Below, one piece after another: positions 51,822 to 63,770 of a stretch of 64,000 bases of DNA (within the stretch, counting starts at the first letter, position 1; every line of letters starts with the position of its first letter). The stretch is taken from NCBI RefSeq assembly GCF_001465545.3, contig NZ_CP013480.3, positions 5,766,001 through 5,830,000 of the forward strand, in the 5' to 3' direction. Source of the DNA: Pandoraea norimbergensis (GTDB lineage Bacteria; Pseudomonadota; Gammaproteobacteria; Burkholderiales; Burkholderiaceae). The translations under genes and the position numbers were made by a program. The notes under the pieces were generated by a model, which was not told the origin of the DNA, did not search any database, and was given only the letters and a program-made list of their open reading frames with translations.

Positions 51822-52754
51822 TCAATCATGCGAGGCAGACATGATGCGTTCGTTCCACTGCGGCAACCAGTCGAGCAGAAACTGCGCGAAACCTTCCGCA
51901 GCGGGTGACGCGGCACGCGATACCGGCCGATACACGCACACCTGACGAATCGTCTCGGGCGCGACGACACGTTGCATCACCAGACCGAAGGTATTGGCGA
52001 GCGCAGCCACGTAGCCGGGCGTCAGCGTGGACGCGAGTCCCTGCGCCGCAATACCGAGCGCCGTCGTCACGTTATCGACGACATCGATAGGCGTGATGCG
52101 TGCGTCGGGCGGAGCGCTCGCGCGCATTTGCTCGACGCTGCGCTCGTGGTCGCGCCCGGCGGCCACGAGTGGCGTGTCGCGCAGGTCTTGCCAGCGCAGT
52201 CGTTTGCGCTTGGCAAGCGGGTGCGACGGCGCGCACCACAACACCCACGGACTATCGAACGCCGGTGCCCCGGCGACATGCGCGCCGGTCGCACGATTGG
52301 GGCCGATGGCAAGATCGAGATCGCCATTGGCGACATGGTCGATGAGCGCGTCGACCGGGGTATCGACCACACGCACGACAACCTTCGGACGCAACGCCGC
52401 GTAATCGCGAATCGCTGCGGGCAGCGCCATGCCCGCGAGCACGAGCGGTGCGCCCACGCGCACGATCCCGGCGGCCCGATTGCGCAAATCGTCGGCGGTT
52501 TTCTCCGCCGCCTGCACATGACGCAATACCGATTCGGCGGATGCAAGAAAGTCGCGTCCGGCACTGGAAAGCGCGACGCGTCGCGTCGTGCGATCAAAGA
52601 TGCGGAAGCCGAGCACGGATTCAAGCTCGGCCACGAGTTGGCTCACCGCCGACGACGTGAGACCCAGCCGCTTGCCGGCTTCGGCAAAGCTGTGCAGCTC
52701 GGCAATGGCCACCAGTGCTTCGAACTGGCGCAGCGTGACACGGGTCAGGGGCAT
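51822..52754 (-). CDS. LysR-family transcription regulator
   Basis: 310 aa. N-terminal helix-turn-helix LRQFEALVAIAELHSFAEAGKRLGLTSSAVSQLVAELE, linker helix, and a periplasmic-binding-like effector domain (from about residue 95). It is divergent from the aromatic aminotransferase gene. The divergent promoter contains a 49-bp element that recurs before the hpaH operon at 63722, so this protein is the likely regulator of both. The effector could be an aromatic acid; that is inference. Confidence 0.93.
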   Translation of the reverse strand: MPLTRVTLRQFEALVAIAELHSFAEAGKRLGLTSSAVSQLVAELESVLGFRIFDRTTRRVALSSAGRDFLASAESVLRHVQAAEKTADDLRNRAAGIVRVGAPLVLAGMALPAAIRDYAALRPKVVVRVVDTPVDALIDHVANGDLDLAIGPNRATGAHVAGAPAFDSPWVLWCAPSHPLAKRKRLRWQDLRDTPLVAAGRDHERSVEQMRASAPPDARITPIDVVDNVTTALGIAAQGLASTLTPGYVAALANTFGLVMQRVVAPETIRQVCVYRPVSRAASPAAEGFAQFLLDWLPQWNERIMSASHD

Positions 52755-52761
52755 GGGGTTT

Positions 52762-52810
52762 CGATTATCAAGTTTCGCTTACGAATCGACCAAAATCGAT
52801 TGATTGTTCC
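52762..52810. promoter_or_regulatory. Shared operator element, copy A
   Basis: 49 bp in the LysR/aminotransferase divergent gap. Its reverse complement matches 63722-63770 with 4 mismatches. It contains ATCAATCGATT-type half sites. A separate 10-bp inverted pair AAATCGATTG (52793-52802) and CAATCGATTT (52829-52838) also lies here. Confidence 0.7.
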
Positions 52811-52832
52811 GTAACGGGCCGTCGCCCACAAT
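52804..52832 (+). promoter_or_regulatory. Candidate promoter of the aminotransferase gene
   Basis: TTGTTC (52804-52809), a 17-bp spacer, then CACAAT (52827-52832). The same TTGTTC and spacing occur at the hpa operon, which supports it. The -35 overlaps the shared element. Confidence 0.5.
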
Positions 52833-52917
52833 CGATTTCAAAAATCCACTGCGATTTCTTTGATCCCTTTGCGTCGAGATTCTGCGACGCCCCCTGCGAG
52901 GCCCCATGCAAGGTCCC

Positions 52918-54117
52918 ATGTTTTCTCACGTCGATGCCTACCCCGGCGACCCCATCCTTGGTCTGAACGAAGCGTTTGGTCAGGACCCCCGGCCGCATAA
53001 GGTCAACCTGTCGATCGGCATCTATTTCGACGATGCCGGCCGCCTGCCCGTGATGGGTGCCGTGCGCGAAGCGGAAACCGGCGTGCTGGCCGACATTGGT
53101 CCGCGCCCGTACCTGCCAATGGCAGGCTCTGCCGCCTACCGCGACGCCGTGCAGGCCCTCGTCTTCGGCGACACCTGCGCCGCCCGCCGCGAGCAGCGCA
53201 TTGCCACCTTGCAGACCCTCGGTGGCGGTGGCGCGCTGCGCGTGGGCGCCGACTTCCTCAAGCGCTACTTCCCCGACGCCACCGTGTGGATCAGCGACCC
53301 CAGCTGGGACAACCATCGCGTCGTGTTCGAGAGCGCCGGGTTCCCCGTGCAGGCGTATCCGTATTACGACGATGCCACCGGCGGCCTGCGTTTCGACGCG
53401 ATGCTCGATACGATCGCCAAACTGCCGCCGCGCAGCATCGTGCTGCTGCACGCGTGCTGTCATAACCCGACGGGCGTCGATCTCACCCCGGCGCAGTGGC
53501 AGACCCTCATACCGGTGCTGCGCGAGCGCGGCCTCATCGCTTTCGTCGACATGGCGTATCAGGGCTTCGGCGATGGACTCGATGCCGACGCCTTCGCCGT
53601 GCGCGCACTCACCGAGTCGGGCGTACCGACCGTCGTGGCGAATTCGTTCTCGAAGAACTTCTCGCTGTACGGCGAACGTTGCGGCGCGTTGTCGGTTGTC
53701 TGCGCTTCGACGCAGGAGGCGTCACACGTCTTCGGTCAACTCACCGGCACGGTGCGGGCGAATTACAGCAATCCGCCGACCCACGGTGCACGGCTTGTCG
53801 CACAGGTGCTCACGACGCCCGCGCTGCGTCAATCGTGGGAAAAGGAACTCGACGGCATGCGTACGCGCATCGCCTCGATGCGCGCAGAAATTCACGCGCA
53901 GCTCGCGTCACATGTCAGCGACGAGAAGCGTTCGCGCTATCTCGCGCAGCGCGGCATGTTCACGTACACCGGCTTATCCGCAGCACAGGCAGACGCGCTG
54001 CGCGAAACCCACGGCGTCTACATCCTGCGCTCGGGGCGTATGTGTGTGGCGGGGCTCAACACGCGCAATGTCGGCACGGTCGCCAGCGCGATTGCGCAGG
54101 TGCTCACAGGCCATTGA
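52918..54117 (+). CDS. Aromatic/aspartate aminotransferase (TyrB-like)
   Basis: Class-I PLP aminotransferase, 399 aa from the ATG at 52918, which gives the TyrB/AspC-like start MFSHVDAYPGDPILGL; an ATG at 52906 with equal ribosome spacing is possible. PLP lysine is in SFSKNFSLYGERCGAL, phosphate and carboxylate binding in HACCHNPTGVD and FVDMAYQGFGDG, and the substrate Arg near the C-terminus. It would interconvert Tyr/Phe/Asp and 2-oxo acids. Divergent from the LysR gene and upstream of an MHS transporter. Confidence 0.92.
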   Translation: MFSHVDAYPGDPILGLNEAFGQDPRPHKVNLSIGIYFDDAGRLPVMGAVREAETGVLADIGPRPYLPMAGSAAYRDAVQALVFGDTCAARREQRIATLQTLGGGGALRVGADFLKRYFPDATVWISDPSWDNHRVVFESAGFPVQAYPYYDDATGGLRFDAMLDTIAKLPPRSIVLLHACCHNPTGVDLTPAQWQTLIPVLRERGLIAFVDMAYQGFGDGLDADAFAVRALTESGVPTVVANSFSKNFSLYGERCGALSVVCASTQEASHVFGQLTGTVRANYSNPPTHGARLVAQVLTTPALRQSWEKELDGMRTRIASMRAEIHAQLASHVSDEKRSRYLAQRGMFTYTGLSAAQADALRETHGVYILRSGRMCVAGLNTRNVGTVASAIAQVLTGH

Positions 54118-54250
54118 GAGGGCACGGGGGCGTTGGCGCCCCCGACAAAGCATCACCAGAAACAATCATCGGAAACACGGAGCGCATGCCTCCGCCAAAC
54201 GCATGCCGAATCCATAACTACATCACGACATCACGTCGACTGGAGACACC

Positions 54251-55549
54251 ATGACAACAGCCACCGCCGCCGGCGCGCGTTCTGACGCGCACCAAGGCGA
54301 CCACATTGCCAAGCACCCTTGGCGTGCGGTCATTTCCGCGTCCATCGGTAATGCGCTCGAATGGTTCGATCTGGTGGTGTACGGCTTCTTTGCCGTGACC
54401 ATTGCGAAGCTGTTCTTCCCGACGCACGACGACACGACGTCGTTGCTGCTCACGCTGGGCACCTTCGGCGTGTCGTTCTTCATGCGTCCGCTGGGTGCAA
54501 TCGTCATTGGTGTCTATGCCGACAAGCAGGGGCGGCGCGCGGCGCTCACGCTGACCATTCTGATGATGATGGTCGGCACGGCGATCATCGCGTTCATGCC
54601 GACGTACGCCTCCATCGGCGTGCTCGCCCCGGTAGGGATCGTGTTGGCGCGGATGATTCAGGGCTTTTCTGCGGGCGGTGAATTCGGCAGCGCGACGGCG
54701 TTTCTCGCTGAGCATGCCCCACGGCGTCGCGGCTTCTTCGCGAGCTTTCAGGTCGCGAGTCAGGGCCTGACGACGCTGCTCGCCGCCGGGTTTGGCGCGT
54801 TGCTCACCAGCACGCTGTCACCGGAACAAATGCAGAGTTGGGGCTGGCGGGTGCCGTTCCTGTTCGGTCTGTTGATCGGACCGGTGGCGTACTACATTCG
54901 CCGGCATGTCGATGAAACGCCGGAGTTCCTGCAAGCGGAGCCGACCGAGACACCACTGCGCGACACGCTGGAGCATCAGAAAATGCGCCTGCTGCTGGCC
55001 GTGGGGGCTGTCGTCGTCGCGACAGTGTCGACGTATCTTGTGCTGTACATGCCGACCTACGCGATCAAGCAGTTGGGGCTACCGGCATCGGTCGCGTTTG
55101 CCGCGACGGTAGCCACGGGGCTCGTGCAGATGTTTCTGTCGCCGGTGGTGGGTGCATGGTCTGACCGCGCCGGTCGCACGAAGCCGATGATGATTGCGGC
55201 GGCCGCGCTGCTGGTCTTGATCTGGCCGATGTTCTGGCTGCTCTCGACGTACCCGAGCTTCGGCATGATGCTCGCGCTGCAAACAGTGCTGGGGGTGCTG
55301 ATGACGGTGTACTTTGCGCCGCTGCCCGCACTGGCCTCCGAGATATTCCCGGTGAAGACACGCACCACGGGCCTGTCGCTGTCGTACAACCTGTCTGTGA
55401 CGTTCTTCGGTGGCTTCGCCCCGTTCATCCTCACGTGGCTCATCAACGTGACCGGCAGCAAACTGGCGCCGAGCTTCTACATGATGGCGGCTGCGGCAAT
55501 CGGGCTGCTCGCCCTGAGCCGGATTTACCGGCATACCGGGGTGCGGTAG
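54251..55549 (+). CDS. MHS-family MFS transporter
   Basis: Twelve-helix metabolite:proton symporter, 432 aa. Family signature after helix 2 GVYADKQGRRAALTLTI and the second half motif SDRAGRTKPMM; N-terminal ASIGNALEWFDLVVYGFFA is typical of the citrate/proline/dicarboxylate branch. The substrate is unknown; position suggests an amino acid or aromatic acid. Its last 39 bp are repeated at 56271-56309 beyond a toxin-antitoxin pair. Confidence 0.92.
   Translation: MTTATAAGARSDAHQGDHIAKHPWRAVISASIGNALEWFDLVVYGFFAVTIAKLFFPTHDDTTSLLLTLGTFGVSFFMRPLGAIVIGVYADKQGRRAALTLTILMMMVGTAIIAFMPTYASIGVLAPVGIVLARMIQGFSAGGEFGSATAFLAEHAPRRRGFFASFQVASQGLTTLLAAGFGALLTSTLSPEQMQSWGWRVPFLFGLLIGPVAYYIRRHVDETPEFLQAEPTETPLRDTLEHQKMRLLLAVGAVVVATVSTYLVLYMPTYAIKQLGLPASVAFAATVATGLVQMFLSPVVGAWSDRAGRTKPMMIAAAALLVLIWPMFWLLSTYPSFGMMLALQTVLGVLMTVYFAPLPALASEIFPVKTRTTGLSLSYNLSVTFFGGFAPFILTWLINVTGSKLAPSFYMMAAAAIGLLALSRIYRHTGVR
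55510..55548 (+). repeat. 39-bp direct repeat, copy 1 (3' end of the MHS transporter gene)
   Basis: The last codons of the transporter gene (encoding LSRIYRHTGVR) through the first two bases of its stop codon. Identical to 56271-56309. Confidence 0.92.
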
Positions 55550-55609
55550 GTTGACTTAGAGCTCGTTCAGTCGGTCGAGAAGATCCGGCAACGCGATCTT
55601 GATAGTGTC

Positions 55610-55894
55610 TCAGACCATGTCAAGATTGATTTCGAAGTAGCCGTGAGCGATGCGATTGCGCATGCCGCGCATCGCTCGCCACGGCACTTCTGAGTGCGCT
55701 TGGGAGAAGTCAGCGTGGCGGTCCATGATCTTGGTAGCCGCCTCGCCGATGATTATCAGACTCATCACTACAGCTTGTTGCGTGCGCTTGTCCTGAAGAA
55801 AGTCTTCCTTTGACAAACCATCGACAAAGTCGCAGGCATCGGTTGCTGCCAGCCGCATATGGTCGAGATAGTCGGGTAGACGTGTTTCACTCAT
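55610..55894 (-). CDS. HepT-like RNase toxin (DUF86), frame cut by TGA
   Basis: Type VII toxin of the HepT/MntA system, a HEPN RNase. Catalytic RX4HXY is present in MRNRIAHGYF. The frame stops at TGA (55610-55612) right after EINLDMV, where HepT proteins normally continue with Trp-Asp. Reading through the TGA gives DTIKIALPDLLDRLNEL and a TAA at 55556-55558, a normal C-terminus. This looks like a TGG-to-TGA nonsense change removing 18 residues. It overlaps mntA by 4 nt. Confidence 0.88.
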   Translation of the reverse strand: MSETRLPDYLDHMRLAATDACDFVDGLSKEDFLQDKRTQQAVVMSLIIIGEAATKIMDRHADFSQAHSEVPWRAMRGMRNRIAHGYFEINLDMV

Positions 55895-56181
55895 ACAGGA
55901 CGAGCCTCAGCGAGTACCTGTGCCCGAAATTTCAATGGGAGATCTGCTGGCGTCAGCACATCGACGTGCACACCCAGCATCGACTCCAATTCATCCTGCA
56001 AGCCGCCGAGATCGAAAAGTGTTGTGCCGGGCAAAGCATCCACCAGAAGATCGAGATCGCTGTCGTCGCGATCCGTTCCGCGCAGCACCGATCCGAACAC
56101 GCGTGGATTTACGGTGTGATAACGCTCAACCGCCTCGCGGACTGCGGCGCGCTTCAGTTGCAGCACCATGGATGGTCGCAT
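55891..56181 (-). CDS. MntA-like nucleotidyltransferase antitoxin
   Basis: Minimal nucleotidyltransferase, 96 aa from the ATG at 56181. The signature GSX10DXD is present as FGSVLRGTDRDDSDLDLLVD. In characterised pairs it AMPylates and silences HepT. The start codon of hepT overlaps its stop (ATGA). Located between two copies of a 39-bp direct repeat. Confidence 0.9.
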   Translation of the reverse strand: MRPSMVLQLKRAAVREAVERYHTVNPRVFGSVLRGTDRDDSDLDLLVDALPGTTLFDLGGLQDELESMLGVHVDVLTPADLPLKFRAQVLAEARPV

Positions 56182-56510
56182 GACGCACCTCGACAAAGAT
56201 GACTCGACAGCCGTCAATATAACCCATGCCCCGTACTCGACTTCATCACGGCTGCCGCTATCGGATTCGCCGCCCTGAGCCGGATTTACCGGCATACCGG
56301 GGTGCGGTAACACGACCCTGATTCGCTAATGCCAACGACCGAGGCCATTTCATACGGAATGGCCTCAGTTTTATCCCGCCCTTGAAGTGACATTTCACAG
56401 ATCACCGGGTGAATTGATCGTATCTCCATGGTCGCGTCGCAGAGTCGCTTCAGCCCGCGATTCCTCCATCGATTTCGCAGGCTTCCTCGAAACGAACCGG
56501 AGATCACGAC
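56182..56510. other. Gap containing a remnant of an MHS transporter 3' end
   Basis: 329 bp. From about 56237 a plus-strand frame reads VLDFITAAAIGFAALSRIYRHTGVR and stops at 56310, resembling the last residues of the MHS transporter at 54251-55549 but differing before the repeat. It has no start and is a gene fragment. The remainder (56311-56510) shows no gene. Confidence 0.75.
56271..56309 (+). repeat. 39-bp direct repeat, copy 2
   Basis: Identical to 55510-55548. The two copies enclose about 720 bp that carry hepT and mntA. Confidence 0.92.
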
Positions 56511-57362
56511 ATGTACGACTCGATTCAAACCGATCAGAGCAAATTTGTGGCTTTGGTCAGAAGATTCTCCCAACTGACCGGCAGGCCTGTTCCTCTTAAA
56601 GAAGCAGGACACGGGGCGTACTTCCTCGGAGATGCCGGGATGAAGAATCTGGCTGATATGGTTGACGGTATTCAGTCGTTCCAGAAACTGCACCCGGGCT
56701 TCGCTCAGATTATCAACGCACCCAAAACATCTTCTCCGATCAATTCAATGGCGCACGGCCTATTGATCGTCAATCAAATCGACAGCGAGAAGGTTCCGCC
56801 CGGGCTCGACAAGGTGGCAGAGGATAAGTGGCGGGAAGCGCAGAAAAATGACCGCCAGGCAGAAATGGATTCGTACATGCATCTGGGCGGGAGCATTACC
56901 CTCAAACAGGGACAGACAACCTTCGTCGATAGCAACGATCGAAAGGTGAGTATCGATTATTGGGTCGCGTTCATGCCCGGCCACATGACGATGCGTGTGA
57001 GAACAAACTTGCTGGTGGATAACCTGCCGACGCAGCGCAAGGAATATTCCGACGGCGAACTGACTCAATTCAAGGGTATTTCGGACCTTGAAAAGCAGGT
57101 ATTCACGAACTTCAAGTTTGTCCCGGCCGGGAAGCCCGAGGAAGTCGTCGAACCACTGATGGACGCCGCGCGTAGTTCGCAAGCGCATGACGTGCTGGCA
57201 GTGGCGGCTGGTCTGGACGGTCACACGCCGGCCACCGCAAAGCTCGATGCCCTGTTGCAATCGATGGGTGCCTTCACGCCCGAGAACAACGGCGTCGACC
57301 AGACCCTCACGCGCGTTACGTCGGCGCCGAAGGCATCGGTGTCGCTCGCCACACCGCATTAA
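56511..57362 (+). CDS. Unrecognised 283-aa protein
   Basis: No family recognised. No signal peptide or membrane helix. Segments such as YMHLGGSITLKQGQTTFVDSNDRK and KEYSDGELTQFKGISDLEKQVFTNFKFVPAGKPEEV look folded; the last 50 residues are Thr/Ala/Pro-rich. GGAG lies upstream of the ATG. The base composition is lower in GC than its neighbours by eye. It sits next to the repeat-bounded toxin-antitoxin segment, which suggests recent acquisition. The shape is compatible with an effector protein but this is not shown. Confidence 0.72.
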   Translation: MYDSIQTDQSKFVALVRRFSQLTGRPVPLKEAGHGAYFLGDAGMKNLADMVDGIQSFQKLHPGFAQIINAPKTSSPINSMAHGLLIVNQIDSEKVPPGLDKVAEDKWREAQKNDRQAEMDSYMHLGGSITLKQGQTTFVDSNDRKVSIDYWVAFMPGHMTMRVRTNLLVDNLPTQRKEYSDGELTQFKGISDLEKQVFTNFKFVPAGKPEEVVEPLMDAARSSQAHDVLAVAAGLDGHTPATAKLDALLQSMGAFTPENNGVDQTLTRVTSAPKASVSLATPH

Positions 57363-57508
57363 CGTCTTTACGGGGGCGCCTCACTTCGATCACCTTGCGT
57401 GATCCGCGCTAATTGCGCGGCGTCAACTGTGTAACACATACAACGGACACTCACGGCGGACTCGGCAACGCAGTCCGCCGCGCTCATGCCAGCCAACGTT
57501 GTGCAGAC

Positions 57509-58498
57509 CTACTGCGGATATAACCCGCGCACTCGCCCAAACAACCGCGCCAAACCGAGCAACGCATCGATATTCGGCGTCGCCACTGACAGCGTCTGCC
57601 CCATCTCGCGCACCACGCTCACCAACGCGTCGAGCTCAATCGGCCGGCCGGCTTCCACATCCTGCAACATCGACGTCTTGAACGCACCGAGCTTCGCCGT
57701 TACCGCATGGCGATCCTCCGGTGATTGCTCGATCACGCAACCAATCTTCCCGCCAATCATCGCCGCCTCGGCCATTGCCGCCGAACAGAACGCGCGCACG
57801 AGCGGATCGTCGAGCACACGGTCGATGGTCGCCCCCGTGATTGCTGACACCGGGTTCATCGTCAGGTTGCCCCACAGCTTGTACCAAATGTCCTGTCGCA
57901 CGTTCTCCGACGCTTTCACCTCGAAGCCCGCGCGCTCCAGCAGTCCGGCCAGCTTCTGCACACGGTCACTAGTCCCGCCGCCCGGCTCACCGATGATCAA
58001 CCCGCGCCCCATCTTGTGATCGACCAACCCCGGCTCCGGCGTGGCCGCGCTCGCATGCACCACACAGCCCAACACGTTCGCCAGCGGAATCGCTGCGCCG
58101 ATGGCGCCTCCCGGGTCGACACTCGTCAACGGTTCGTCGCCGAACGGCGCCACGCCCTTGCAGAACCACCACGGCACGCCGTTCATCGCCGGCAACACGA
58201 TCGTGTCCGGCCCGATCAGCGGCCCAATGGATGCTGCCACTTGTGTGAGCGCCGGCCCTTTGACCGCGATCACCACCAGATCCTGCACGCCAAGCTTCTC
58301 CGCCTCTTCCAACGGATGCGCTGCCGCCACCGGCGCGGCGGAAAGCGACTCGCCCTGCTTTACCCGCCAGCCGCGCTCACGCAGCGCCGCCAGCGTCGCG
58401 CCGCGCGCCAATGCGCTGACCCGCGCTTCGCCCGTCGCCGCCAGCTTCGTGCCGATCAGCCCGCCAATGGCGCCCGCGCCAATGATCGTTACCTTCAT
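57509..58498 (-). CDS. 2-dehydropantoate 2-reductase family protein
   Basis: NADPH-dependent ketopantoate-reductase fold, 329 aa from the ATG at 58498 (GGAG at 7-nt spacing). Rossmann motif GAGAIGGLIGTKLAATG at the N-terminus; catalytic Lys and Asn region in NLTMNPVSAITG. PanE makes pantoate for CoA. As the last gene of the hpa operon it may instead reduce another 2-oxo acid; pantothenate genes are not nearby. Confidence 0.9.
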   Translation of the reverse strand: MKVTIIGAGAIGGLIGTKLAATGEARVSALARGATLAALRERGWRVKQGESLSAAPVAAAHPLEEAEKLGVQDLVVIAVKGPALTQVAASIGPLIGPDTIVLPAMNGVPWWFCKGVAPFGDEPLTSVDPGGAIGAAIPLANVLGCVVHASAATPEPGLVDHKMGRGLIIGEPGGGTSDRVQKLAGLLERAGFEVKASENVRQDIWYKLWGNLTMNPVSAITGATIDRVLDDPLVRAFCSAAMAEAAMIGGKIGCVIEQSPEDRHAVTAKLGAFKTSMLQDVEAGRPIELDALVSVVREMGQTLSVATPNIDALLGLARLFGRVRGLYPQ

Positions 58499-58578
58499 TC
58501 GTCTGCTCCGTACCAAGAATTGCCGCGACGTGCCGGCATGACCGGGACATCTTCGGATGCCGCCACCGCTTACGTCAA

Positions 58579-59526
58579 CTACGCCTTATTTGCCGCGCGC
58601 CGGTAGTTCTCTTTGAAATGCTCCGGTACACGCTCATCGAAGCCCAGCGCAACACGGCGTACTTCCGGGCTATCGGTCGGCGCATGTCCCACGCCGAGCG
58701 CCGCCGCACGCGGCGCTTCGATGCCGACGACCCGGCCTGACAGTCGGCCCAGCCCGGTGATCTCGCACTCGACCAGATCGCCCGCATCGACCGAGCGCGA
58801 ATGGCATGGCGTGCCCATCAGGATCACGTCGCCCGGCATCAGCGTGATGTGACGCGCGATGTCCGCGATCACGTAATGCGGGCCCCAGATCGTCTCGCCG
58901 CCGATGTGCGCTTCCTGCACGACCAGTCCGTTGCGATACGTGCGCAATGTCTGCTCGAACAGATTCACGCCGCGCACGATGCCGGGACCGATCGGCAACA
59001 GCGTATCCGCGCCCTTCACACGCAGCATCGATCCCTGATCGGTATCGCGAAAGTCCTGCAACCCCATGTCGAGCGCCGGGCAGAAGCCTTCGATGTAATC
59101 CCACGCCTCGTCGGGCAATACGTTGCGGCACGTCCGGCTGATCACTACCGCGTACTCGCTCTCGTAGTTCAGATACTTGCAATCGGCAGGCTTGAGAATC
59201 TGCCCGCCATGGCCATTGAGCGAAGTCGGCGGCTTGGTGAAATACGTTGGCGTATCGGTCGGCTTCGGCTTGTTGCGCGTCTCCATGCTGCGCGAACGAT
59301 ACGAGATATGCACCGCGATGATCTTCGACGGGTCCACAGGCGGCAGATGCGCCACCGTTTGCGGATCAACGACGCGGCCGTCGTCGAGACGCAACTGACC
59401 GCGCAGCGAGCCGTCTTCGATCATCGTGCCCCAGAACGCGCTGCCGCCCAGCAAGATGCGCCGGCGCTCAACACGTGGTCCTCGCATGACTTCGGGGAGT
59501 GCTTTCAGCGGAAATTCGAAATCCAT
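58579..59526 (-). CDS. hpaG: FAH-family isomerase/decarboxylase, HpaG-like
   Basis: Fumarylacetoacetase-superfamily enzyme, 315 aa, single FAH domain. Metal ligands in NYESEYAVVI (two Glu) and CPALDMGLQDF (Asp). HpaG in E. coli is a double-domain enzyme that decarboxylates OPET and isomerises the product in the homoprotocatechuate pathway; here only one domain is present, so it may do one of the two steps. GAGGGAG precedes the ATG; it starts 12 bp after hpaD. Confidence 0.85.
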   Translation of the reverse strand: MDFEFPLKALPEVMRGPRVERRRILLGGSAFWGTMIEDGSLRGQLRLDDGRVVDPQTVAHLPPVDPSKIIAVHISYRSRSMETRNKPKPTDTPTYFTKPPTSLNGHGGQILKPADCKYLNYESEYAVVISRTCRNVLPDEAWDYIEGFCPALDMGLQDFRDTDQGSMLRVKGADTLLPIGPGIVRGVNLFEQTLRTYRNGLVVQEAHIGGETIWGPHYVIADIARHITLMPGDVILMGTPCHSRSVDAGDLVECEITGLGRLSGRVVGIEAPRAAALGVGHAPTDSPEVRRVALGFDERVPEHFKENYRRAANKA

Positions 59527-59538
59527 CGTGTGACTCCC

Positions 59539-60432
59539 TCAGGCCTGACGCGCGTTGCTGCTCGCGCTGTCATCGCCATCGAACCAGATATGCACGTTGC
59601 CGGTGCCGCGCGCGTTTTCGTAATCGGAGAGCACCACGCCCTTGCTTCGACATGCAGCGCCGCCCAACGCACCGACCATTTGCAGATAGTGCGCGCCGTG
59701 GGCTTCCCACGGACGCTTGCGATAGTCGCTGTCCCAGTCCGCCAGAATCTGGTCATGACGTCCCTCGCGAAACGCTTCGATCGCGCGCTTGTCGCTCTCG
59801 ATGTTCTCCGGGCGCGACACGTTGCTCTCGTGAAAAATGCGCGGATGCGTGGGCTTCCAGTCGATGCCGTTGAACTTGTGACTCAGCGCGCCGGACGCCA
59901 GCATCACCACGCGCAAATCGCTGCGGCGAATGGCCTCGCCGATCACTTCCCCCGATTGCAGGAAGTGTTCCGTCTCGCAGTTCTGGCACGAGCTCACGGT
60001 CACGATCGGCCACGCATCGAGGCGCATCTGCTTGATGACGTTGATCGTCGGATAGTGACGCGGCAAATCGGGATGCTGCACGGCACGCGCGCGCACGCCC
60101 TTCTCGCGCGCTACGGCTTCCACCGCGAGCGCCAGTTCCGGATGACCACGATAGTCATACGGCACGCCGTGCAGATACCACGGCATTTCGTCCGAGACGT
60201 ACATGCCGGAATAGCGCGCTCCGCCGTCGATCAAGTGATAGCCGGTCGTGAACCAGTGCGAATCGAAGATCAGCACGACATCCGGCTTCGCCGCCGCAAT
60301 TCGCTCGCGCACTCGCGTGTACCCGGCGATCAAATCCGAATCCGCGCCTGCGCCCTGCAAGACGCGGAATTCCTCGCACTGCATCAGGCCGGGATGGTGC
60401 GACACCAATGCCGCGCCGACGATCTGTCCCAT
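59539..60432 (-). CDS. hpaD: 3,4-dihydroxyphenylacetate 2,3-dioxygenase (LigB-type extradiol)
   Basis: Class III extradiol dioxygenase, 297 aa, iron-dependent, opening the ring of homoprotocatechuate. Metal/active-site residues are in VSHHPGL, IFDSHWFTTGYH and ASGALSHKF, and GTGNVHIWF resembles the HpaD C-terminal region. GAGGAG sits 6 nt before the ATG. The family includes related enzymes for other catechols, so the substrate rests on the neighbouring hpa genes. Confidence 0.86.
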   Translation of the reverse strand: MGQIVGAALVSHHPGLMQCEEFRVLQGAGADSDLIAGYTRVRERIAAAKPDVVLIFDSHWFTTGYHLIDGGARYSGMYVSDEMPWYLHGVPYDYRGHPELALAVEAVAREKGVRARAVQHPDLPRHYPTINVIKQMRLDAWPIVTVSSCQNCETEHFLQSGEVIGEAIRRSDLRVVMLASGALSHKFNGIDWKPTHPRIFHESNVSRPENIESDKRAIEAFREGRHDQILADWDSDYRKRPWEAHGAHYLQMVGALGGAACRSKGVVLSDYENARGTGNVHIWFDGDDSASSNARQA

Positions 60433-60490
60433 GGTGTTCTCCTCAATCTCTCTTGTTTTTTACGGAATGCCGCGATGCCATCAGCGATGA

Positions 60491-61966
60491 TCAGCGATGG
60501 CTGAAGCTCGCCTTGAACGGCTGTTTCGGCACGACGACATCCTTCACGTCGCAGAAGAACTCGAAGCTCCATTCGCCGCCTTCGCGGCCTACGCCCGAGC
60601 GCTTGATCCCGCCGAACGGCGCCGCGAGATCGCGAATGCCAAAACTGTTGACCCAGATGAAGCCCGTGCGCACGCGTTGCGCGATGGCGATGGCATGCGC
60701 CTCGTCGCCATAGCAGACGCCACCCAACCCGAAATCGGTGCCGTTGGCCATGTCAACCACATCGTCGTCGCTGCGGAACGTCTGCAACGTGAGCACCGGC
60801 CCGAAGACTTCCTGCTGCACGATCTCGTCGCGTTGACGCAAGTCGGTGAGCAGCGTTGGTGCGAAATACTGCGCGCCGAACGCATGACGCTTGCCACCCC
60901 ACAGCACGCGCGCGCCGCCAGCGACAGCACGCTCGACAAAACCCTCCACACGCTCAAGCTGACGCGGATGAATGATCGGCCCGACTTCCGTTGCCGCTTC
61001 ACGCGGATCGCCCACGACGAGGCTTTCGACCAGCGTACGCAGCGTCTCGGTGAAACGTTGCGCGACGTCGGCATGCACGAGCAGTCGTGTGCCCGCGAGA
61101 CACACCTGCCCCGCGTTGCGATACATCAGCGCGGCCGTGGCGGCGGCAGCGTCAAGATCGGCGTCGGCGAGCACGATGAAGGCCGACTTGCCGCCGAGTT
61201 CGAGGCTGCACGGCACCAGATTCGCGGCGGCCGTTTTCGCGATCCACTTCGCCGTCGTCACCGAGCCTGTGAACGAGATCCGTGCGAGCCGCGAATCGCT
61301 CACCAGCGCCGCCCCCGTCACCGCACCCGAGCCCTGCAACAGGTTGAATACGCCGGGCGGCAACCCCGCCTCTTCCGCACAGTCGGCCAATAGCGACGAC
61401 GTGAGCGGTGCCCATTCGGGCGCCTTGAGCACTACGGTGTTGCCGGACGCGAGCGCCGGACCGATCTTCCACGTCGCGAGCATCAGCGGCGAATTCCACG
61501 GCGTGATGATGGCCACCACACCGGCCGGGTCGTGCCGCACGAGATGGCGCGCCTGCGGGGTCTCGATCACGCGGTCCTGCAACGTCAGTGCATGCTCGGC
61601 AAACCAAGTGATGTTTTGCATCGCGCGCGGCACCACGCCGTGCGCCATGCGCGAGCGCAACACACCCGCATCGTGGCTCTCCAGCGTGGCGAACGCTTCG
61701 GCACGACGCCCGATCGCGTCGGCAAAGCGTTGCAGATACGGCTGGCGTGCAGCCGCGCCCAGCGCCGCCCAAGCAGGGAACGCCTGTGCTGCCGAGGTGA
61801 CGGCGGCGTCCACGTGCGCGAGATTGCCGCTGGCGATATGGCCGAGCAGCGATTGATCGATGGGGGAAACGCATTCGAACGTATCCGGCGACGCCACGCG
61901 TCGTCCGTCGATGAAATGATCTGGCGACACCGGAATACCGGCGACGTCAAAACGGGAAGCGCTCAT
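60491..61966 (-). CDS. hpaE: 5-carboxymethyl-2-hydroxymuconate semialdehyde dehydrogenase
   Basis: Aldehyde dehydrogenase of 491 aa, oxidising the ring-cleavage semialdehyde with NAD+. N158 (PWNS), Glu257 (LELGGKS) and the nucleophile Cys289 (GQVCLAG) are in place. The ATG at 61966 has GAGG at 7-nt spacing; the open frame goes further upstream but is not family-like. Between hpaI and hpaD. Confidence 0.9.
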   Translation of the reverse strand: MSASRFDVAGIPVSPDHFIDGRRVASPDTFECVSPIDQSLLGHIASGNLAHVDAAVTSAAQAFPAWAALGAAARQPYLQRFADAIGRRAEAFATLESHDAGVLRSRMAHGVVPRAMQNITWFAEHALTLQDRVIETPQARHLVRHDPAGVVAIITPWNSPLMLATWKIGPALASGNTVVLKAPEWAPLTSSLLADCAEEAGLPPGVFNLLQGSGAVTGAALVSDSRLARISFTGSVTTAKWIAKTAAANLVPCSLELGGKSAFIVLADADLDAAAATAALMYRNAGQVCLAGTRLLVHADVAQRFTETLRTLVESLVVGDPREAATEVGPIIHPRQLERVEGFVERAVAGGARVLWGGKRHAFGAQYFAPTLLTDLRQRDEIVQQEVFGPVLTLQTFRSDDDVVDMANGTDFGLGGVCYGDEAHAIAIAQRVRTGFIWVNSFGIRDLAAPFGGIKRSGVGREGGEWSFEFFCDVKDVVVPKQPFKASFSHR

Positions 61967-61997
61967 GCGATGCCTCGTTGGGGGAAAGTGGGGAAAT

Positions 61998-62774
61998 TCA
62001 ATCTGCCGAGTCGGCAAACTTGGCGGCGAGCGCACGGCTCGCATTGGCGAGCAGCGACGTGTCGATGCCGACGGCAATAAACGTCACGCCGAGGTCGAGG
62101 TAGTGGCGCGCCAGCGTCTCGTCAACACACAAGATGCCGGCCGGTTTGCCGGCAGCGCGAATGCGCGCGATGCCGTCTTCGATGGCCTTGCGCACGTCCG
62201 GATGCGTCGCCTGCCCGAGATAGCCCATCGACGCGGCCAGATCCGCCGGGCCGATGAACACCCCGTCGACGCCGTCGACCGACGCGATGGCATCGACCTG
62301 CGCGAGCGCTTCGGCGGTTTCCACCTGCACCAGTAGACACGCCGTGTCGTTCGCTGCATGCAGATAGTCGTCGTAGCGATTCCAACGCGACGAGCGGGCG
62401 AGCCCGCTGCCGACACCGCGCGTGCCCTGCGGCGGATAGCGCATGGCGCTGACCAGCGCCGCCGCCATGTCGGCGGATTCGACCATCGGCACGAGCAACG
62501 TCGTCGCGCCGATTTCGAGCACCTGCTTGATGAGTACCGCATCGCCCTGCGGCAGACGCACGACCGGATGCGACGGGTAAGGCGCGACCGCCTGAAGGGC
62601 CGCGAGCGTCGAGCGCAGATCGTTAGGCGCGTGCTCGCCGTCGATCACGATCCAGTCGAAGCCGCTGCCGGCGCACAGCTCGGCGGCGTACGGTGTGGCG
62701 AGTCCCATCCACAGGCCGATCTGGCGCTGCCGGTTGGCGAGCGCCTGCTTGAAGGCATTCGGGGGCGTTTTCAT
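61998..62774 (-). CDS. hpaI: 4-hydroxy-2-oxoheptanedioate aldolase
   Basis: Class II pyruvate aldolase, 258 aa, splitting 4-hydroxy-2-oxo-heptanedioate to pyruvate and succinic semialdehyde. Signature [12 protein letters not shown], the catalytic Arg in [15 protein letters not shown] (metal Glu) and [13 protein letters not shown] are present. 29 bp after hpaH. Confidence 0.92.
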
Positions 62775-62803
62775 GAGGTCGGTTCCGGAGTTCGGGGAGT
62801 CGG

Positions 62804-63607
62804 TCAGACGAAGCGCACACCGATCGCCCCCAAGGGGCCGTAATCGGCATGAAAGACATCGCCCGCCTTGCAGGCGACCGGTCGCGTGAACGACCCGGCG
62901 AGCACGATCTCGCCCGCCTGCAAGCCTTCGTCGAAGGCACCCAACTTGTTAGCAAGCCACGCGACACCGTTGGCCGGGTGATTCAGCACTGCGGCACTCA
63001 GGCCCGACTCTTCGATCACGCCATTGCGATAGAGCAACGCCCCCGTCCAGCGCAGATCGATGGCATCCGGTTTGACCGGGCGCCCGCCCAGCACGATGGC
63101 GGCATTGGCCGCGTTGTCGGCAATGGTGTCGAACACTTTGCGCGGTGTCTGCGTGTCGCGGTCGAACAGCTCGATGCGGCCGTCGATCAGCTCGAGCGCG
63201 GGTGTGACCCATGCCGTGGCGTCCAGCACATCGAACAGCGTGACGCCGGGGCCCTTGAGCGGTTTGGCCAGAATGAACGCTAGCTCCACTTCGAGACGCG
63301 GCACGATGAAGCGCCCCGCTTCGAGCGTTGCGCCATCGGCGACGAGCATGTCGTCAAGCAGCGTGCCGTGGTCGGGTTCGGTGATTTGCGCGGCCACCTG
63401 CATCGCGCGCGAGGTCAGTCCGATCTTGTGGCCGATCACACGCCGGCCTTCCGCGTATTTCAGCGCGAGCCACGCTTGCTGAATCGCGTAGCTGTCGGCA
63501 ATGGTGATGTCGGGATAGCGGCGCGAGAACTGCGTCACCGGCGTGCGGCTACGCTCGGCGTCGTGCAACTCGCGGGCAAGGGCTTGATGAATCGACGCAT
63601 CCAGCAT
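62804..63607 (-). CDS. hpaH: 2-oxo-hept-4-ene-1,7-dioate hydratase
   Basis: Hydratase of the HpaH/MhpD family, 267 aa. Metal-binding Glu residues are in [12 protein letters not shown] and [18 protein letters not shown] is the conserved active-site loop. GGAG precedes the ATG at 8-nt spacing. First gene of the six-gene operon hpaH-hpaI-hpaE-hpaD-hpaG-panE-like. Confidence 0.92.
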
Positions 63608-63699
63608 CTTGTATGTCTCCGTAGCGCCGCCGCTCGCTCGGACGCTTGGGGCGCGTAGAGCGCGATGTGGGCAGCGCGGTTCTTGTCTCGATGCGCTCT

Positions 63700-63728
63700 A
63701 TTCTTGCGGCTCGGCGCCTGCGGAACAA
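63700..63728 (-). promoter_or_regulatory. Candidate promoter of the hpa operon
   Basis: On the minus strand TTGTTC (63723-63728), a 17-bp spacer, then AAGAAT (63700-63705). The same -35-like hexamer and spacing occur at the aminotransferase. Leader about 86 nt to hpaH. Confidence 0.5.
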
Positions 63729-63770
63729 TCAATCGATTTTGGGCGATTAGTAAGCAAAACTGGATAATCG
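63722..63770. promoter_or_regulatory. Shared operator element, copy B
   Basis: 49 bp that match the reverse complement of 52762-52810 with 4 mismatches. It overlaps the -35 of the hpa promoter. Orientation relative to the catabolic gene is the same as in copy A relative to the aminotransferase. Confidence 0.7.

Follow-up and report, generated by a model that had tools for sequence, protein, structure and literature searches.

A LysR-type regulator gene and two copies of its putative operator, 11 kb apart, at an aminotransferase gene and a ring-cleavage operon of Pandoraea norimbergensis

A 49-bp element that occurs twice, about 11 kb apart, was studied in a 64,000-nucleotide stretch of the Pandoraea norimbergensis genome (contig NZ_CP013480.3, positions 5,766,001 to 5,830,000; hereafter the window). 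Copy A lies between a gene for a LysR-type regulator (lysR) and the divergent gene of a TyrB-type aromatic aminotransferase, whereas copy B, which is not so placed, precedes hpaH, the first gene of an hpa-like ring-cleavage operon (Table 1). The explanation that best accounts for the observations as a whole is that the LysR protein acts at both sites and drives the aminotransferase gene as well as the operon, and comparison of sequences gives this reading a probability of nearly 0.9. A coincidence of sequence thereby becomes a defined and testable two-operator LysR regulon, and the genes nearby indicate a catabolic route for which the annotation may suggest the wrong substrate.

The preliminary description of this DNA had reported a match of 45 out of 49 bases between A, on the forward strand, and B, on the reverse strand, and direct comparison gave the same count; one half of the element, ATTGATTGT, is present in both. 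The promoter-like hexamers were likewise found as described. In A, TTGTTC (52804-52809) is followed after exactly 17 bp by CACAAT (52827-52832) and reads towards the aminotransferase gene, and in B, on the minus strand, TTGTTC (63728-63723) is followed after the same distance by AAGAAT (63705-63700) and reads towards hpaH. Only A was said to adjoin a LysR gene, and this too held, as beyond B come a TonB-dependent receptor gene starting about 380 bp away (L028:4153-6354) and then rpoC/rpoB-like open reading frames (ORFs), with no LysR gene seen among these neighbours. When the final 301 bp of the window were compared by BLAST with the whole genome, a single 6.17-Mb contig, the other copy was retrieved at E 1.5e-13, with no third copy at E 0.001; a genome search for 22 fixed positions, with up to three mismatches allowed, likewise gave just A and B. 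The element is thus not scattered over many unrelated sites, which the description had named as a finding that would speak against its proposal. The 16-base core alone had one extra copy with one mismatch and one with two mismatches. The former (G000:C1:5890554), which adjoins a DEAD-box helicase-like ORF and another LysR-like ORF, was rejected as a third operator since the rest of the motif is missing, the best score in the surrounding 20-kb stretch (L031) being -3.9 bits.

Among 32 Pandoraea genomes, that of the window included, an ortholog of the LysR protein at 88-100% identity occurred in 27, and the ring-cleavage dioxygenase of the operon, also at 88-100%, in the same 27. The left half of the element, used as the search pattern, was found in all 27 carriers and, as one weak match, in 1 of the 5 genomes lacking LysR, so that the co-occurrence of element and regulator gene on which the earlier proposal hung was observed in related genomes. 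Site B was present in 27 of 27 operon carriers. The aminotransferase (at least 85%) was found in 22 of the 32 genomes, each of which has exactly two sites. The remaining five carriers of LysR have no such aminotransferase: A is retained in G010 and degraded in G008, and only B is seen in G011, G024 and G029. At nucleotide resolution, A matched at 21-22 of the 22 key positions in the window and in all 12 aminotransferase-bearing Pandoraea loci fetched, and B at 21-22 in each of 18 Pandoraea sequences, that of the window among them, where its -10 hexamer is AAGAAT, or AACAAT in one. In the alignment B stands as a conserved island between variable flanks. The high identity of the two copies within one genome might suggest a duplicated or mobile sequence devoid of regulatory function, a notion which is hardly tenable and already contradicted: differences specific to A and B are kept across the genus while the flanks of B vary (by eye), no further copies exist in the genome, the same site is present in other genera, and not one of the 27 operon carriers lacks B. 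A mobile repeat was therefore rejected. A second LysR protein, 48-50% identical to the one studied, was seen in 10 of the 32 genomes (e.g. G004:C4:101729).

Outside the genus, 78 outgroup loci were given for motif analysis, 65 of which have a LysR-relative gene (a set slightly different from the 65 rows of the LysR tree below). The region upstream of LysR scored 17-22 of the 22 key positions in 64 of these 65, as against a mean of 10.3 and a maximum of 15 in 1,300 shuffled regions. Downstream of the -35, a hexamer of the form xAxxxT follows at 17 bp in 58 of the 64 outgroup sites and at 18 bp in 10, with 0-1 sites for any other spacing tested. A motif built from the 64 outgroup sites alone gave A and B 55.7 bits each, the next best score being 5.8 in the scanned parts of this genome (the window and six other stretches, 172,002 bases with 4,000 counted twice, or about 168 kb).

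The partners of the LysR relatives were surveyed in two ways. A scan with the dioxygenase yielded 126 relatives, 80 of which were kept, 17 from Pandoraea and 63 from others; two of the loci, L097 and L150, belong to one genome, Cupriavidus sp. amp6. In 50 of the 63 non-Pandoraea loci the stretch includes a LysR relative (56-69%), frequently as the divergent gene next to the first gene of the operon. For the other 13, the genome has a LysR at 58-68% elsewhere in 11 cases. Four of the 13 stretches hold a site ahead of hpaH at 17-20 of 22 positions (L057:6712, L060:7442, L065:7454 and L091:14226), and all four genomes carry a 64-68% LysR elsewhere, a remote-operator layout like that of Pandoraea and perhaps of separate origin. 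The element was also sought in outgroup genomes without LysR and this case was rejected, as neither of the two such dioxygenase stretches, L101 and L106, has a site, L106 being the only one to cover the hpaH promoter region. In one genome (G285) a 53% LysR paralog lies about 1.6 kb from a three-mismatch site ahead of an aldehyde dehydrogenase gene (L114:5859-8430), perhaps a sister regulon.

A family scan of 249 Burkholderiaceae genomes found 15 outside Pandoraea with the LysR at E 1e-105 or better. In nine of these the partner is an aminotransferase (69-71%), with the element between it and LysR and a gene like that of 2-dehydropantoate 2-reductase (KPR-like, 57-60%) further on; a class II aldolase gene lies between in both of the loci inspected, with Pfam support in one. 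No close dioxygenase was found in these nine genomes, where the best match was 29-30%. In two others (G435 and G476) LysR faces hpaH and the dioxygenase is 74% and 69% identical. In the LysR tree, for which 11 of the 17 Pandoraea rows were dropped beforehand, the 65 non-Pandoraea rows comprised 30 facing hpaH, 9 facing hpaE, 9 facing the aminotransferase and 17 others. The Pandoraea proteins joined the aminotransferase-linked group together with L148 (Shimodaira-Hasegawa-like approximate likelihood ratio test 92, by a quick method, with a midpoint root that sets no order of acquisition for the targets). L148 (genome G456) combines a 70% LysR with a site, in a stretch that lacks both the aminotransferase and hpa genes and has transposase-like ORFs (by eye). 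In the aminotransferase tree (5 of 12 Pandoraea rows dropped beforehand) the LysR-linked enzymes of Pandoraea and of the sister lineage each formed a clade of their own, with an own-genome paralog at the fork at zero branch length. Relatives of this LysR stand opposite hpa genes in some genera and opposite an aminotransferase in a sister lineage, and Pandoraea appears to have both targets under one regulator. That the element is bound by some other regulator common to the order, LysR being an incidental neighbour, is very improbable: the pattern matched in just 6 of 300 genomes of the order, the window's included and one of the other five looked into, the element tracks the LysR gene in Pandoraea and stands at LysR's own start in most outgroups, and the site-bearing hpa loci with no adjoining LysR sit in genomes that have one.

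Three losses of the aminotransferase provide a natural experiment on operator decay. When the presence of the aminotransferase is mapped on a tree built from seven concatenated proteins, it changes three times, and each change is read as a loss. In the clade of P. eparura, P. terrigena and P. cepalis, A is down to 18-19 of 22 positions and its -10 CACAAT has become CACCAT or CACCAG, with lysR kept at 88-90%. In Pandoraea sp. ASV26, A ends after its first bases as if by deletion, and in P. communis it is still at 21 of 22 beside a 41-residue aminotransferase relic (L045:12877-12996). B remains at 21-22 of 22 in all five species. This agrees with the aminotransferase being what maintains A and the operon being what maintains B; P. 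communis speaks neither for nor against it, as expected after a recent loss. These losses also bear on whether A might serve lysR autoregulation only, with the aminotransferase a mere neighbour and B the sole catabolic target. Autoregulation does seem built in, since in 49 of the 64 outgroup sites no more than 10 bases separate the lysR start from ATTATC (hand count), and P. communis retains A with no working aminotransferase gene. Autoregulation as the whole purpose of A is nevertheless improbable, as the hexamers directed at the aminotransferase are kept with the gene and broken in the three-species clade despite its well conserved lysR, and as the nine Burkholderiaceae loci have LysR, site and aminotransferase in genomes with no close dioxygenase.

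Under two-site control, the 49-bp element would be the binding site of the LysR protein encoded at 51822-52754. A LysR dimer would occupy the upstream dyad, whose centre lies at about -64 in both A and B if the start is set 7 bases after the -10, and would make a second contact at AATCGATTGATTGT, beside and over the -35, which the second half of the element overlaps. A dyad near -65 with a second site at -35 is the usual geometry of LysR activators. Together with an aromatic inducer, LysR would then activate the promoter with its 17-bp spacing. At A it would drive the aminotransferase and perhaps the adjoining major facilitator superfamily (MFS) carrier, and at B the genes hpaH-hpaI-hpaE-ligB-FAA-hydrolase-KPR. 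Site A should also set the level of lysR itself, because the lysR start codon abuts the site, 9 bases from ATTATC. Given the outgroup starts close to ATTATC, operator and lysR promoter are expected to overlap, which makes autoregulation likely and a leaderless lysR mRNA possible. The complement of ATTATC, GATAAT, makes a good -10 hexamer (52751-52770 in the window).

Several observations weigh against control of both sites by this LysR. One genome (G028) gave a weak two-mismatch match to the element with neither LysR nor dioxygenase, and L087 has LysR but a site score of only 8 of 22. The fetched Pandoraea species overlap with the 32 genomes, so the two are not independent samples. The 22-position pattern had been drawn up with A, B and some outgroups already in view, which makes the count of 64 in 65 partly circular; the outgroup-only motif is free of this circularity. 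Because most outgroup loci entered the set through their dioxygenase, LysR genes adjoining hpa genes are over-represented in the counts. In the family scan, which is free of this bias, the partner was the aminotransferase in 9 of 15, hpaH in 2 and neither in 4. A T-N11-A box is the usual but not universal mark of LysR sites, and the dyad of many outgroups, CAAGCnnnGCTTG, is ATC-N11-GAT, i.e. T-N13-A, and departs from the strict box, the Pandoraea dyad moreover being imperfect. The plasmid pTomTYG64a of the alphaproteobacterium Sphingobium (L162) has the same cluster, with the dioxygenase at 63.5% and with a LysR of 45% identity that diverges from a different aminotransferase (39%). This arrangement counts in favour of the reading, though no such site was seen by eye in the gap between those two genes. 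Also on this plasmid are a TonB-dependent receptor and a protein annotated as a D-2-hydroxyacid dehydrogenase.

Table 1. Features of the two candidate operator regions, in window positions
Feature	Position	Strand	Basis or remark
LysR-type regulator gene	51822..52754	-	divergent from aminotransferase; Pfam HTH_1 and LysR_substrate above cut-off
Candidate operator, copy A	52762..52810	+	45/49 identity to B; outgroup-trained motif 55.7 bits
Copy A, dyad-like half	~52764-52785, centre ~52775	+	~-64 from predicted start
Copy A, distal half AATCGATTGATTGTTC		+	overlaps -35
Predicted aminotransferase promoter	52804..52832	+	TTGTTC, 17 bp, CACAAT
TyrB-type aromatic aminotransferase	52918..54117	+	NF006719 569.6 bits, cut-off 377
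MFS metabolite/H+ symporter	54251..55549	+	
2-Dehydropantoate 2-reductase-like (KPR-like) protein	57509..58498	-	NF005089 405.7 bits, cut-off 223
FAA-hydrolase-fold protein (HpaG-like)	58579..59526	-	PF01557; TIGR02303 155 bits, cut-off 276
LigB-type (class III) extradiol ring-cleavage dioxygenase	59539..60432	-	PF02900; distant from HpaD
HpaE-like semialdehyde dehydrogenase	60491..61966	-	TIGR02299 477 bits, cut-off 638
HpaI, 4-hydroxy-2-oxoheptanedioate aldolase type	61998..62774	-	TIGR02311 387.2 bits, cut-off 368.8
HpaH, 2-oxohept-4-ene-1,7-dioate hydratase type	62804..63607	-	first gene of operon; TIGR02312 435.5 bits, cut-off 351.5
Predicted hpaH-operon promoter	63700..63728	-	TTGTTC, 17 bp, AAGAAT
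Candidate operator, copy B	63722..63770	-	no adjoining LysR gene; outgroup-trained motif 55.7 bits

Both domains of the regulator score above their cut-offs (HTH_1 64.4 bits against 26.6, LysR_substrate 110.9 against 28). The aminotransferase is of the TyrB type by its subfamily score, and its best match among PDB sequences is 4wd2, TyrB, at 630 bits; the ORF was listed from 52906, and homologs start at the second ATG, 52918. The MFS symporter gene downstream perhaps shares its transcription unit and is missing jointly with the aminotransferase in 5 of the 17 Pandoraea loci. At the other end, the KPR-like gene, which follows the FAA-hydrolase gene in 17 of 17 Pandoraea loci, is the probable last gene of the B operon. 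The TonB-dependent receptor gene adjoins the hpaH promoter in all 17, and an AT-rich conserved piece between the two in three species might be an iron-regulator site (by eye).

As to metabolism, the preliminary description had seen a split tyrosine/phenylalanine regulon with meta-cleavage of a dihydroxyphenylacetate. Its regulatory half, LysR control of both sites, is well supported by comparison through co-occurrence and rarity, and its metabolic half is weaker. The TyrB-type aminotransferase, HpaH and HpaI pass their NCBIfam cut-offs (equivalog families in the case of HpaH and HpaI), whereas the dioxygenase, the HpaE-like and the HpaG-like proteins fall below theirs, and no HpaB-type hydroxylase (PF03241) was found in the window's genome. 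As the operon is an hpa-like variant with HpaB missing, a route from tyrosine or phenylalanine via dihydroxyphenylacetate is less certain. A pathway in which, under the same two-site control, the aminotransferase feeds 4-hydroxyphenylacetate and homoprotocatechuate to a normal hpa operon is a serious possibility, though short of an even chance. Besides the three proteins that pass, it has in its favour that the PDB sequence nearest to the dioxygenase, 8iq8, is a 3,4-dihydroxyphenylacetate 2,3-dioxygenase, but this match reaches just 85 bits. The dioxygenase scores 133.9 bits against the HpaD family TIGR02298 (cut-off 315.95) and is 29-30% identical to proteins annotated hpaD or hpcB on the listed plasmids, its nearest named relatives (96-99%) being those of Pandoraea. 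Also telling against a normal hpa operon, PF03241 is missing in 14 of the 27 operon carriers as well as here, other hydroxylases and decarboxylases not having been searched for; the family was found in 14 of the 32 Pandoraea genomes, 13 of them among the 27 carriers.

The neighbours of related clusters suggest another substrate. A second aldehyde dehydrogenase, 34-37% identical to HpaE, lies in the stretch at 13 of the 63 non-Pandoraea loci. Five such enzymes were tested, from three of these 13 loci, from L156 of genome G476 and from the Sphingobium plasmid, and all five had as best families alpha-ketoglutaric-semialdehyde (KGSA) or 2,5-dioxovalerate dehydrogenase (506-537 bits, under cut-offs of 750-770), ahead of HpaE and betaine-aldehyde dehydrogenase (390-427 bits) and of succinate-semialdehyde dehydrogenase (342-361 bits), a ranking that speaks against the homoprotocatechuate route. 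The five look like one orthologous family and are therefore counted as one hint. Within the clusters of L070, L054, L111, L156 and the Sphingobium plasmid, or close to them, there are GlcD-type dehydrogenases, and the surroundings of the L156 cluster also include a D-2-hydroxyglutarate dehydrogenase of the YdiJ type that scores above its cut-off. In Cupriavidus sp. amp6 an aminotransferase of 72% identity lies not far from the dioxygenase. Along with the D-2-hydroxyacid dehydrogenase and the LysR-linked aminotransferase of the Sphingobium plasmid, these neighbours suggest a catechol with a three-carbon side chain (C6-C3), such as 3,4-dihydroxyphenylalanine (DOPA) or dihydroxyphenylpyruvate, rather than to homoprotocatechuate.

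It is a tentative and rather doubtful proposal that the genes under this control break down C6-C3 catechols by an undescribed meta-cleavage route. The aminotransferase would turn L-DOPA into 3,4-dihydroxyphenylpyruvate, whose ring the LigB-type enzyme would open; in relatives, D-2-hydroxyacid dehydrogenases might, just as tentatively, supply the same intermediate from dihydroxyphenyllactate. The hpa-like enzymes would, on the same doubtful footing, process the ring-opened product with its longer side chain and end at pyruvate and alpha-ketoglutarate semialdehyde instead of succinate semialdehyde, and relatives could conceivably oxidise the alpha-ketoglutarate semialdehyde with the KGSA-type dehydrogenase. 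No second aldehyde dehydrogenase was found in the window's cluster or in the 17 Pandoraea loci, so the C6-C3 idea is borrowed from relatives. If it were true, LysR would tie side-chain entry to ring cleavage.

The system resembles known ones in part. BenM, CatR and NahR are LysR-type regulators with divergent catabolic targets, and the protein described here shares with this type the HTH_1 and LysR_substrate domains, a divergent target, a dyad near -65 and a second site at -35. It differs in that one of its two putative operators is remote, lying 11 kb off without an adjoining regulator gene, and in a dyad that is ATC-N11-GAT in outgroups and not T-N11-A. With the 4-hydroxyphenylacetate (homoprotocatechuate) meta-cleavage pathway the operon shares the hydratase and aldolase types, and the same order of chemistry is plausible. 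It is set apart by the distant LigB-type dioxygenase, the sub-threshold HpaE and HpaG, the missing HpaB and the added KPR-like gene, and some relatives also by GlcD-type and KGSA-type dehydrogenases. No description of this LysR or its operator was found in titles or abstract openings of the literature, subscription journals being mostly outside the scope of the search. HpaR of E. coli W and Yersinia also controls an hpa meta-cleavage operon, but it belongs to another protein family, MarR, and according to the abstract of PMC7180172 its control of that operon is negative. HmgQ of Azotobacter and Shewanellaceae (Gammaproteobacteria) is, like the present protein, a local LysR-family regulator predicted by comparative genomics; its predicted role is in tyrosine breakdown, where it would govern homogentisate-pathway genes in other taxa, and the portions of PMC5343134 consulted do not connect it with any hpa-like operon. 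Within these sources the HmgQ regulon is the nearest published concept, different in genes and taxa, and the present regulon, an ordinary LysR-type protein with two operators, is new in detail and ordinary in kind.

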